Of a DNA stretch of 64,000 bases, positions 55,080-61,984 are shown piece by piece. Positions within the stretch are counted from its first letter, which is position 1; the number at the start of each line of letters is the position of its first letter. Made by a program: the position numbers and the translations under genes. The stretch is taken from the NCBI RefSeq assembly GCF_001715195.1, contig NZ_MDWE01000016.1:1-64000 (forward strand), given 5' to 3'. Below the pieces are notes generated by a model, which saw nothing but the letters and a program-made list of their open reading frames with translations, made no database searches and had not been told where the DNA came from. Origin of the DNA: Rhodohalobacter halophilus. GTDB taxonomy: Bacteria > Bacteroidota > Rhodothermia > Balneolales > Balneolaceae.

Positions 55080-55928
55080 ATGAAAGCATATTTAGATTTA
55101 GTTCAGCGCGTACTTGAGCACGGAGTTCGAAAGGAGAACCGGACGGGAACCGACACGCTCTCAAATTTTGCAGAATTTTATAAAGTTGACCTGGAGGATG
55201 GGTTTCCGCTGCTCACTACAAAAAAAGTCTATTTCAAATCCGTAATTATGGAGCTTCTCTGGTACCTGAGAGGCGATGACCATATACGCTGGCTAAGAGA
55301 TGAAAAAGATGTTCACATCTGGGATGCATGGGCTGATGATGACGGTTACGTAGGCCCAATCTATCCTGTGCTGTGGAGAAGGTTTCCCTATTTGAAGGAG
55401 AAGAATGGCGCATCATATCCAAAACAGGGAGAATCCCGTGAAAGGGATTGGGTCTATGATGAATTTGATCAGGTTCAGAGAGCCATTGATATGTTGAAAA
55501 ACAACCCGAACAGCCGAAGAATCGTTGTTTCTACCTGGCACCCGGGTTTATTGGATGAGATGAGGCTGCCACCCTGCCATATCATGTATATATTTAATGT
55601 GTCTAACGGGAGATTGAATTGCCATTTAACTCAGCGATCCGGTGATATTGCCTTGGGAATTCCATTTAATCTGGCGTGCTATTCTGCTTTAACTATGGCA
55701 ATGGCCCAGGAGGTTGGATTGAAACCGGGTGAATTTGCACATACAATTGTGGATGCTCATATTTATGAAAACCACATTGAAGGACTCCAGGAGCAGTTGA
55801 CCAGGGAACCCAAAAAGCTGCCTAAATTGACGATCGCAAAAAAACCGATCGACCAATTGGAGTTTGAAGACTTTTCACTTGAAGGGTATGATCCCGATCC
55901 GGCTATTAAATTTCCTGTGGCTGTATGA
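55080..55928 (+). CDS. thyA: Thymidylate synthase
   Basis: 282 residues. Catalytic Cys166 in MRLPPCHIMYIFNV, Arg21 in RKENRTGTDT, QRSGDIALGIPFNLACYS and IYENHIEG. It is the folate-dependent ThyA type, slightly longer than the 264-residue E. coli enzyme through an insert near 105-125. Overlaps folA by four bases. Confidence 0.96.
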   Translation: MKAYLDLVQRVLEHGVRKENRTGTDTLSNFAEFYKVDLEDGFPLLTTKKVYFKSVIMELLWYLRGDDHIRWLRDEKDVHIWDAWADDDGYVGPIYPVLWRRFPYLKEKNGASYPKQGESRERDWVYDEFDQVQRAIDMLKNNPNSRRIVVSTWHPGLLDEMRLPPCHIMYIFNVSNGRLNCHLTQRSGDIALGIPFNLACYSALTMAMAQEVGLKPGEFAHTIVDAHIYENHIEGLQEQLTREPKKLPKLTIAKKPIDQLEFEDFSLEGYDPDPAIKFPVAV

Positions 55929-56395
55929 AAATTGTATTAATTGTAGCTCATGACCCAAACCTGGTGATTGGCAATGAAGGCGGTTTACCCTGGCACTACA
56001 GTGAAGACCTCAAGTTTTTTAAAAAAGAAACGATGGGGCACCCAATTGTGATGGGGCGTATTGTATTTGAAGAGCTAAATGAAAAACCACTTCCCGGCCG
56101 TGAAAATATTGTACTGTCCCGCACAAAATCCTTTGAGCACGTCAAAACATTCAAATCAATCGAGGAGGCGCTTGATAATCTTCGGGGCCATGAGAAGGTG
56201 TTTATAATTGGAGGAGGGGAGATCTACAAACAAACCCTGGATATGGCTGATGAACTCATTGTCACGCAAATAAAGGTGGAGTATTCAGGTGATACCTTTT
56301 TTCCGGAATACCAGGATAAAATTGGAACGGTTTGGAGAGAGTACTGGAGAGAGGAACATTCTGCATTCGATTTCGTTAAACTTAAAAAAGTTTAA
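55925..56395 (+). CDS. folA: Dihydrofolate reductase
   Basis: 156 residues. Substrate-binding Asp28 in LPWHYSEDLKFFK, NADPH motif VMGRIVFEEL and IIGGGEIYKQTL. Regenerates tetrahydrofolate used by ThyA, whose gene overlaps by ATGA. MGR is followed by Ile-Val where most homologues have Lys/Thr-Thr. Confidence 0.95.
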   Translation: MKIVLIVAHDPNLVIGNEGGLPWHYSEDLKFFKKETMGHPIVMGRIVFEELNEKPLPGRENIVLSRTKSFEHVKTFKSIEEALDNLRGHEKVFIIGGGEIYKQTLDMADELIVTQIKVEYSGDTFFPEYQDKIGTVWREYWREEHSAFDFVKLKKV

Positions 56396-56488: not shown

Positions 56489-57586
56489 ATGGAAATTTAT
56501 CTTTCAACATATCGACCCCTGTTTCTAAATGAAATTTGGCTGTACAGTGTAACAAACCAAATTTACCTTGTTACTCTGATCATGGTCTTTTCATTGGTTG
56601 CCTATCTGTTCATAAAAAACAGGAAGTCTGAATCATTCTCGTTGACCACATCTGAACAGTACCACTTTTTACAGGCTGTAACTAAATATTCCGAGACAGC
56701 TGATTTTATTGTAGATCATCAGCATACACTGAAGTTTGCAAATGAGCATTTTCTCAAAATGTTCGACCTTGAAGAAGAGGCAGTGGATAATATCTCATTT
56801 TCCCAAATTGGAGTACCTATTGAGCTAAAAAATATCGTCACTATGACAGGAAATAATGGATCTAACAGCTCAGTATTTACGCTAAATGATGGTCGGAAGA
56901 TTTCTTGCAAAAAGGCTCCCGTGACGACACATGATGGACAACATCTCGGGACACTGTACAAAATTTCAGATCATATTTTCACAGGAAAGGGAAAAGCTGA
57001 TGCCGGAAAATGGTTGCACGAGATCAATACCCCTCTAAACGCAATTGTCGGTTATTCCGAAATTTTAAAGAATCAGGAAGGGCTTAATCCGGATCAACGA
57101 GATTACCTTGAAACGATTAATGCACAGTCGTTTCAACTAAAATCGAGAATCGAAGATCTTCTTGCTGATAGAAATTCAACCAATATTTCTGCTGTTGAAA
57201 ACAGAACTGAGATTCGTAAAGTCTTGATTGTCGATGATGTGCCGATCAATCGTACTGTTTTGAAAATTATGCTGAGGAGGATGGATTTTGATGTTACTGA
57301 AGCCGTAAACGGTAAAGAAGCATTGAAAAAGTTTGAAGCAAATCCTGCAGACTTAATTCTGATGGATATCAGTATGCCGGTGATGAATGGATTGGAGACG
57401 ACCAAAAAACTGCGTCAGGATGGACACAACATCGATGATTTACCGATTATTGCCGTCACAGCCAGTACATTTTATGACAAGAGAGAGACTCTGAGAACGA
57501 AAGGATTTAACGCACTTCTTAAAAAACCTTTCAAAGAGAGAGACTTAGTAGAGGTACTAAAAGCAGTTAATGCTCCATTAAATTAA
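56489..57586 (+). CDS. Membrane PAS-HisKA-receiver protein without an ATPase domain
   Basis: 365 residues from ATG 56489 (an in-frame TTG at 56468 is less likely). Order: short N-terminus, one membrane helix (23-43, QIYLVTLIMVFSLVAYLFIK), a PAS-like domain (64-160), a HisKA dimerisation segment with the H-box KWLHEINTPLNAIVGYSEIL (His177), then after about 60 residues a receiver domain: acidic pair Asp249/Asp250, phospho-acceptor Asp293 (LILMD), Thr324 and Lys346. The HATPase_c domain (N, G1, G2 boxes) that should follow HisKA is absent. It may be phosphorylated by another kinase or signal by dimerisation. Confidence 0.85.
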   Translation: MEIYLSTYRPLFLNEIWLYSVTNQIYLVTLIMVFSLVAYLFIKNRKSESFSLTTSEQYHFLQAVTKYSETADFIVDHQHTLKFANEHFLKMFDLEEEAVDNISFSQIGVPIELKNIVTMTGNNGSNSSVFTLNDGRKISCKKAPVTTHDGQHLGTLYKISDHIFTGKGKADAGKWLHEINTPLNAIVGYSEILKNQEGLNPDQRDYLETINAQSFQLKSRIEDLLADRNSTNISAVENRTEIRKVLIVDDVPINRTVLKIMLRRMDFDVTEAVNGKEALKKFEANPADLILMDISMPVMNGLETTKKLRQDGHNIDDLPIIAVTASTFYDKRETLRTKGFNALLKKPFKERDLVEVLKAVNAPLN

Positions 57587-58832
57587 TCTCTTTTACGTGC
57601 ACTGCGTAGGGTTTCACAACAGGCTTGGTCAAAGCGATTATATGTTTTGTATCGGCTGCTTTTGAGAATTCAACGGCTTTCTTGTGATCATCATCCAGTA
57701 TCCAGATACTCTCATTTTCATATTTATAAGCCTCGGAATAGCTCTTATCAAAATTTACATAAAACCCGGCTGAATGGTCATCACTTGGTAAATTGTGCTT
57801 TTTCAGATACTTCTTGGTTTTTGTAAAAATCTCATCTTTCAGGCTTTTAACCTGGCCTTTTTGGATAAATGTGGTTCTGAAAAGGGATCTGTTCAGAAAT
57901 CTGGACGTTAAGTCAGAAAGTATTGGGTCATAACTTCCAAGCCAGCTTTTAATAGATATGAGTACATCATTATCATCCAGGGCGAGGTAGTGTTCCAGCA
58001 TGTCCGATGTTATTAATTTTCTTGCTGAAGGCTTAGCCTGCAGAAAAAACCTGAGAGGATCTGAAGGAATGTGAACGCTTTCTCCATTTTCCAGGAGGTA
58101 TTCAACCCGTTTAAAAATCTGCTTAAGCAGTGTATCGGCACTGAGTACCGTTTTATGCAGATAAACTTGCATGTACATCAATCTTCTCGAAAGGATGTAA
58201 TTCTCTACTGCATAAATTCCCTTCTTTTCAATTACTACGTTTCCGTTTAGAACCCGCATTGTTTTTAAAATACGGTTAATACCAACAGAACCCTCCGAAA
58301 CTCCGGTAAAGAAGCTGTCTCTTTTAAGATAGTCGAGGCGATCGATATCTAACTGAGAGGAGATGAGCTGATGCAGAAATTTTTTCGGGTATTGATCGGT
58401 AAAAATGTCGATAGCGGTGGATAATGCTCCGTCAAACTCCTGATTAAGCTTCTCCATGATTTTCAAGCTCATCATTTCGTGGTTGAAATCTCGGATCAGA
58501 GAGTGTTCAAGCGTATGAGACAGTGGGCCGTGACCAACATCATGAAGAAGGATTGCGATCAGTGTTCCATTGATTTCAGCATCACTTATGGTAGTGTCTT
58601 TCTCCTGAAGATTCTTTAATACGCGCTGCCCGAGCTCCAGGGCGCCGATGGCGTGTGAAAAACGGGAATGTTCAGCCGCCGGAAAGACCAGGTATCCGAG
58701 TCCGAGCTGGCGAATACGCCGAAGCCGTTGCACATATGGATGATCGATCAGTTTGAGAATAATCCCTTTTGGGACAGAAATGAAGCCGTGGATCGGATCA
58801 CTGAAAATTTTGTACTGTTTACTTTTATCCAT
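57567..58832 (-). CDS. HD-domain phosphohydrolase (dGTPase/SAMHD1-like)
   Basis: 421 residues. Starts with the family motif KIFSDPIHGFISVP; HD residues are His60 (HSRFSH), His97-Asp98 (LLHDVGHGPLSH) and the distal Asp in SSQLDIDRLDYLKRDSFFTG. These proteins usually hydrolyse dNTPs or related nucleotides; the substrate is not known here. The last 20 bases overlap the 3' end of the PAS-HisKA-REC gene on the other strand. Confidence 0.85.
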   Translation of the reverse strand: MDKSKQYKIFSDPIHGFISVPKGIILKLIDHPYVQRLRRIRQLGLGYLVFPAAEHSRFSHAIGALELGQRVLKNLQEKDTTISDAEINGTLIAILLHDVGHGPLSHTLEHSLIRDFNHEMMSLKIMEKLNQEFDGALSTAIDIFTDQYPKKFLHQLISSQLDIDRLDYLKRDSFFTGVSEGSVGINRILKTMRVLNGNVVIEKKGIYAVENYILSRRLMYMQVYLHKTVLSADTLLKQIFKRVEYLLENGESVHIPSDPLRFFLQAKPSARKLITSDMLEHYLALDDNDVLISIKSWLGSYDPILSDLTSRFLNRSLFRTTFIQKGQVKSLKDEIFTKTKKYLKKHNLPSDDHSAGFYVNFDKSYSEAYKYENESIWILDDDHKKAVEFSKAADTKHIIALTKPVVKPYAVHVKEINLMEH

Positions 58833-61636: not shown

Positions 61637-61984
61637 TTAAATTAGCTCGTTGAACTCAGATAGGATCTGGTCGCAATAGACATCCATTTCATTTGTGAGG
61701 TCTGCAAGCTCTTCAGTTGATCGGTTCTCTTTGATATAATCTTTTGATTTTTCGTACATATCAATCACCGGCTGCAGTTTAAGCATCATTGCTACCGGTT
61801 TAATTTTATGGCCGGCACGTCGCAGCTCTTCCATATCCCGGGCGAGTACAGACTCTTTAAAGTTGGTTTGAAATTCTGAAAAGGATTGAATTGACGCTTT
61901 TGAAAACTCTTTTACGTATCCATCATCGTCGTAGAGCATTTCTCTTATAATTCCAACATCAACAAAGTTTCTTTGTTTAGCCAT
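61637..61984 (-). CDS. Stand-alone histidine phosphotransfer (Hpt) protein
   Basis: 115 residues, all-helical. The Hpt signature is RRAGHKIKPVAMMLKL with phospho-acceptor His59 (canonical xxHxLKGxxxxxG). No kinase is fused to it, so it must receive phosphate from, or pass it to, a receiver elsewhere; the REC-bearing protein at 56489-57586 is a candidate. Overlap-free, three bases from the neighbouring thioesterase gene. Confidence 0.8.
   Translation of the reverse strand: MAKQRNFVDVGIIREMLYDDDGYVKEFSKASIQSFSEFQTNFKESVLARDMEELRRAGHKIKPVAMMLKLQPVIDMYEKSKDYIKENRSTEELADLTNEMDVYCDQILSEFNELI

Follow-up and report, generated by a model that had tools for sequence, protein, structure and literature searches.

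A predicted membrane PAS-HisKA-receiver protein of Rhodohalobacter halophilus that lacks HATPase_c and probably descends from a hybrid histidine kinase

The window analysed here is a stretch of 64,000 nucleotides from Rhodohalobacter halophilus (contig NZ_MDWE01000016.1, positions 1 to 64,000). Between folA and a convergent HD-domain hydrolase gene it carries a frame for a putative transmembrane (TM) PAS-HisKA-receiver (REC) protein (Table 1), described as continuous in the first-pass annotation and indeed intact. The genome has 13 HisKA matches; HATPase_c is matched in the same frame in the other 12, but not in this protein.

Table 1. Features of the locus and of the ATPase-less protein in the window
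Feature	Position	Strand	Basis
folA, upstream border of the slot (preceded by thyA, 55080-55928)	55925..56395	+	
ATPase-less TM-PAS-HisKA-REC protein, 365 aa (stop included)	56489..57586	+	intact, continuous ORF; orthologues
Single transmembrane helix, residues 24-42, then KNRK	56558..56614	+	Kyte-Doolittle 2.26; conserved FLNEIWLY..TNQIYL N-terminus
PAS domain, residues about 60-165	56666..56983	+	weak Pfam match; orthologue G099 above cut-off; profile match to 780-aa kinase
HisKA (DHp) hairpin, residues 169-228	56993..57172	+	Pfam, conservation
His177 codon, invariant phospho-acceptor; next residue Glu178	57017..57019	+	residue conservation
Thr181 codon (H+4), phosphatase-type residue; Thr in 14 and Asn in 1 of 15	57029..57031	+	residue conservation
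Linker, residues 226-243, in place of the lost HATPase_c	57164..57217	+	conservation, AlphaFold2 model
Receiver domain, residues 243-358; D249, D250, D293, T324, K346 invariant	57215..57562	+	Pfam, conservation, model, Foldseek
HD-domain hydrolase, convergent downstream border; 20 bp overlap with the 3' end of the ATPase-less gene	57567..58832	-	
Divergent stand-alone HPt-like protein, 115 aa, motif LRRAGHKIKP, candidate partner	61637..61984	-	Pfam Hpt, family profile

Pfam searches of the protein returned HisKA (5.5e-13, residues 176-225) and Response_reg (1.9e-26, residues 245-357) far above the cut-off, and no HATPase_c match even at E 10. The PAS match was weak in the window copy (13.7 bits) and above the cut-off in the G099 orthologue (27.9 vs 22.6 bits). 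By the positive-inside rule, the C-terminal part of the protein is predicted to be cytoplasmic. In the AlphaFold2 model, in which the PAS and TM parts are of low confidence, the receiver had a pLDDT of about 87-98 and two HisKA helices were formed at residues 182-194 and 201-225; residues 224-238 fell below 50, indicating a disordered linker, and residues 229-242 contain no invariant position among 13 aligned proteins. In a Foldseek search, the model matched receiver domains best. An ATPase fold missed within residues 200-245, which the first-pass annotation had named as one finding that would overturn its claim, is ruled out by Pfam and the model together. The positions it gave for His177, Asp293, Thr324 and Lys346 were right, as was its conclusion that HATPase_c is missing; its spacing of about 60 residues between His177 and the receiver, however, consists mostly of HisKA helices, and the true gap between HisKA and the receiver is about 18 residues.

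The receiver has the residues expected of a response-regulator receiver, namely the acidic pair D249/D250 together with D293, T324 and K346; it lies at the C-terminus with 7 residues after it, and the protein contains no known output domain. The HisKA domain has its conserved His, as in a HisKA-type histidine kinase, but the HATPase_c catalytic domain of such a kinase is absent, and so is the order HisKA-HATPase_c-REC of hybrid histidine kinases. A sensor and a HisKA with its His, in the absence of HATPase_c, place the protein among the HisKA-without-HATPase (incomplete histidine kinase) proteins. In its relatives HATPase_c is absent as judged by alignment and length, and in two of them by Pfam as well.

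The same form was found in eight of the 28 genomes of the window's genus (g1) and in six genomes of four further genera, many of the genomes surveyed being draft or incomplete, so that absences are soft. The frames are 364-385 aa long except in G103, whose 316-aa ORF is missing the TM segment; a 269-aa TM-HisKA-REC form without PAS is present in G028. Homologues with the same domain order thus exist in 14 species, besides the one shorter form. This conservation agrees with the earlier view that the domain borders are native and no simple deletion artefact, although an ancient domain loss does seem to lie behind them. Public records of the form are L011 and L012 (Balneolaceae), of which L011, labelled Chitinophagaceae, is probably mislabelled. 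Wherever both borders were recovered, the gene sits between folA and the convergent HD hydrolase gene; the G001 contig ends ahead of the HD gene, and its downstream border was not recovered.

The closest pair of orthologues, G001/G021, showed purifying selection, with a dN/dS of 0.077 overall, 0.078 for the receiver and 0.034 for HisKA, the lowest of the domains. An assembly artefact or a pseudogene is ruled out by the orthologues and the low dN/dS. Residues invariant in 13 aligned proteins are His177, T181, P182, L183, A185, D249, D250, D293, T324, K346 and P347, and the receiver is among the best conserved domains. His177 is present in all 15 ATPase-less proteins and Asp293 in all 13 that were aligned, which answers the question of their conservation raised at first pass.

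The positions around His177 were compared with those of HisKA+HATPase proteins from the same loci (n = 97), a set chosen by a motif requiring Ser before the His, which may have favoured canonical boxes; in this set H+1 was E or D in 97/97 and H+3 was Arg in 96/97. In the ATPase-less proteins (n = 15), H+1 was E in eight, D in three, N in two, S in one and Q in one, so that an acid is kept in 11, window copy included, and H+3 was N in eight and K in seven, with no Arg. The Fisher values, 2e-4 for H+1 and 1e-17 for H+3, take no account of relatedness; the four proteins that lack the H+1 acid belong to a single subclade and may represent one event, and the H+3 change may likewise be a single event. 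Mutational work by Willett and Kirby showed that kinase activity requires the H+1 acid and phosphatase activity does not, and that the reverse holds for the H+4 Thr/Asn (PMC3510030). Given these roles, the residue needed only for kinase activity appears to have been free to change in the ATPase-less form, with the His and the phosphatase residue at H+4 held, a pattern that would argue for phosphotransfer or phosphatase chemistry over retained kinase chemistry.

Other genomes hold different occupants at the slot between thyA-folA and the HD gene. In g6, g22 and g24 the occupant is a TM-PAS-PAS-HisKA-HATPase_c-REC protein of 771-782 aa that carries a C-terminal tail. Five g4 genomes, Gracilimonas amylolytica (L014) among them, have a 400-aa HisKA-HATPase_c-REC protein there, and another five g4 genomes a protein of 138-172 aa consisting of the receiver only; the slot is without such a gene in one subclade of g1, in g7, g8 and other genera. 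The same-slot hybrid kinases of Balneolaceae (L013, L014, L099, L226-L231) share with the window protein the slot and related HisKA and receiver domains; unlike it they retain HATPase_c, and their 400-aa form lacks TM and PAS. The TM-PAS of the 780-aa kinase is homologous to that of the ATPase-less form: in a profile comparison, the TM-PAS of the latter matched the TM and first PAS of the kinase with a probability of 97.1 (E 7e-11), whereas the probability with its second PAS was far lower (19.3). The receiver-only proteins (L257, L260, L261, L263 and L267, from G086, G083, G080, G081 and G085) appear to be what finally remains of the same kinase after reduction. Full hybrid kinases, 784-1105 aa in length, lie directly downstream of folA in the outgroup family f5, in 3/3 genomes in which folA was recovered. 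Given these f5 kinases and the kinase in the slot of sister genera, a kinase at the slot is most simply ancestral. As a separate observation, the f5 loci L371, L372 and L382 have a cluster downstream of folA that comprises at least one hybrid kinase, small receivers and a REC-HisKA type protein, and the same cluster is present at L373, where folA is not in the stretch.

A tree of 120 receiver columns placed the ATPase-less proteins in one group (SH-aLRT 92), separate from a group of same-slot kinases and receiver-only proteins (SH-aLRT 89); the node uniting the two groups was weak (SH-aLRT 61). In a second tree, built from five genes of the neighbourhood with f3 and f5 as the root and without mgtE, which is non-orthologous in some genomes, every sampled genome with the ATPase-less form fell in one clade (100/100), sister to the kinase lineage. 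Repeated independent losses of the ATPase domain had been suggested by midpoint rooting, under which the carriers form three lineages, and were rejected since these become one clade with the f3/f5 root. Because all ATPase-less forms lie in one clade of the rooted tree and the slot is occupied by full HisKA-HATPase_c-REC kinases in sister genera, HATPase_c was probably lost once, long ago. In the simplest history, PAS2 and the C-terminal tail were lost along with HATPase_c or were gained in the other line; G028 later lost PAS, and the whole gene disappeared from G102 and from one g1 subclade.

Two candidate phospho-partners were found. The supposition that the genome has a single HPt proved wrong, as a second, divergent HPt-like protein is encoded about 4 kb from the ATPase-less gene, between an acyl-CoA thioesterase-like gene and galE. 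It scored 19.9 bits against Pfam Hpt (cut-off 24.6) and its G021 orthologue 26.1, and the profile of its family also picks up other HPts; a fold search with its model, which is of low confidence, was uninformative. The gene is conserved in g1, g2, g28 and g30 as far as their neighbourhoods were covered, and within g1 it is present in carriers and also in genomes that lack the ATPase-less gene; it is therefore not strictly linked to the latter and would not be a dedicated partner, and we treat it as a lead. The second candidate is a PAS-HisKA-HATPase_c-REC-HPt kinase on C45 (locus L314, 7849-9807, P0002), between P-type ATPase and GNAT genes. Within g1 this kinase was present in 8/8 carriers of the ATPase-less gene and in none of the other 20 genomes at E 1e-6, apart from a weak match to a different protein in G018. 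Beyond g1 the pattern is broken, in that the kinase was not found in G100 and G102 has the kinase without the ATPase-less gene. The eight carriers represent one clade, and the kinase is a lead only.

We favour, with a probability of roughly 0.55, the reading that the ATPase-less protein is a membrane-anchored phosphotransfer or phosphatase node, no longer a kinase, that arose from a hybrid kinase through loss of HATPase_c and is fed in trans. The ancestor would have been a membrane-bound hybrid histidine kinase of the type TM-PAS-...-HisKA-HATPase_c-REC in the same slot, and synteny and the trees suggest that HATPase_c was most simply lost once, in the common ancestor of g1, g2 and g27-g30. 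With that domain missing, the protein would be unable to autophosphorylate, and it may now act as a PAS-modulated dimer whose Asp293 receives its phosphate in trans, from a hybrid kinase or an HPt. The HisKA dimer would supply His177 and Thr181, whose conservation suggests that the phosphoryl group is moved between His and Asp, hydrolysed, or both; the partner and the direction of phosphate flow are inferred. A further proposal, put forward tentatively, is that a single ancient ATPase loss gave rise to a dedicated membrane phosphatase or phosphate sink under sensor control, which would use its receiver to drain phosphate from the HPt or response regulator, with the kinase-only H+1 residue decaying and the phosphatase residue fixed.

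The H+1 acid kept in 11/15 proteins speaks against the node reading, as it is what one would expect if His177 still received its phosphate in trans from an ATPase domain. The HisKA domain could then form a heterodimer in which HATPase_c of another kinase phosphorylates His177, the phosphate passing to its own receiver or to another regulator. Split histidine kinases such as CheA3/CheA4 exist, and EnvZ is functional when split (PMC3591291); CheA3/CheA4 resemble such an arrangement in principle, in having the phospho-acceptor His and the ATPase on different proteins, and the genome has 12 other HisKA kinases as possible partners. We nevertheless consider this explanation unlikely, given that the H+1 acid is gone from a whole subclade in which the His and H+4 are retained, and that the kinase-typical Arg at H+3 is missing in 15/15. 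Moreover, unlike for CheA3/CheA4, no dedicated ATPase partner was found among the two shortest ATPase-only proteins examined, both of which resemble RsbW-type anti-sigma factors (by sequence, and one also by its STAS and GAF/SpoIIE-like neighbours), and there is no kinase gene within about 3 kb on either side of the ATPase-less gene.

That the receiver is the one domain common to all forms at the slot, remains alone in five g4 genomes and is well conserved could mean that it is the sole active part, phosphorylated in trans on a membrane-tethered response regulator in which HisKA merely dimerises, in line with the interpretation of similar archaeal PAS-HisKA-REC proteins as dimerising regulators (PMC5847659). 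The invariance of His177, T181, P182, L183 and A185 in 13 divergent proteins and the particularly low dN/dS of HisKA in the closest pair, however, go beyond the needs of a bare dimerisation helix, and we regard this explanation too as improbable. The empty slot in one g1 subclade and in other genera, the loss of PAS in G028 and the TM segment missing from the G103 ORF might be taken as signs of a functionless remnant heading for loss, but intact frames in 14 species, low dN/dS and retention of all the catalytic residues make this very hard to accept.

Spo0B and ChpT retain a degenerate ATPase domain. They are named as degenerated-kinase phosphotransferases beside PhyT, a membrane-anchored, histidine kinase-derived protein that has lost kinase activity, carries out His-Asp phosphotransfer and likewise keeps a degenerate ATPase domain (PMC5898713). 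These three proteins have no receiver in the chain, whereas in the window protein the receiver is fused and the ATPase domain, by Pfam and the model, is not degenerate but gone altogether. In a SMART survey, 3.66% of HisKA proteins were without HATPase, and 1.7% were without it and had an HE/DxxN/T motif (PMC3591291). In archaea, proteins that combine PAS/GAF, HisKA and REC and lack HATPase are on record; a role in dimerisation or as a phosphatase was suggested for them, and no member of the "HisKA, no HATPase" class had been studied by experiment at the date of that report (PMC5847659). One of them, A. fulgidus AF_1472 (REC+PAS+HisKA), shares with the window protein PAS, HisKA with the conserved His, REC and the absence of HATPase_c; proteins of its type are archaeal, whereas the window protein is bacterial and TM-anchored and has a full-kinase relative at the same slot in sister genera. 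The window protein is a further member of this known, barely studied class, whose members frequently carry the annotation of a kinase. The unusual point is the evolutionary series of kinase, ATPase-less, receiver-only and empty states at a single locus; with these forms at one syntenic slot, the fate of a kinase after ATPase loss, be it as phosphatase, relay or plain regulator, can be tested with orthologues.

A last observation concerns the rnc-thyA interval, where several species (L203, L204, L219, L322 and others) have, in place of the mgtE gene beside thyA, an mgtE homologue that is far more divergent; this replacement misleads species trees.
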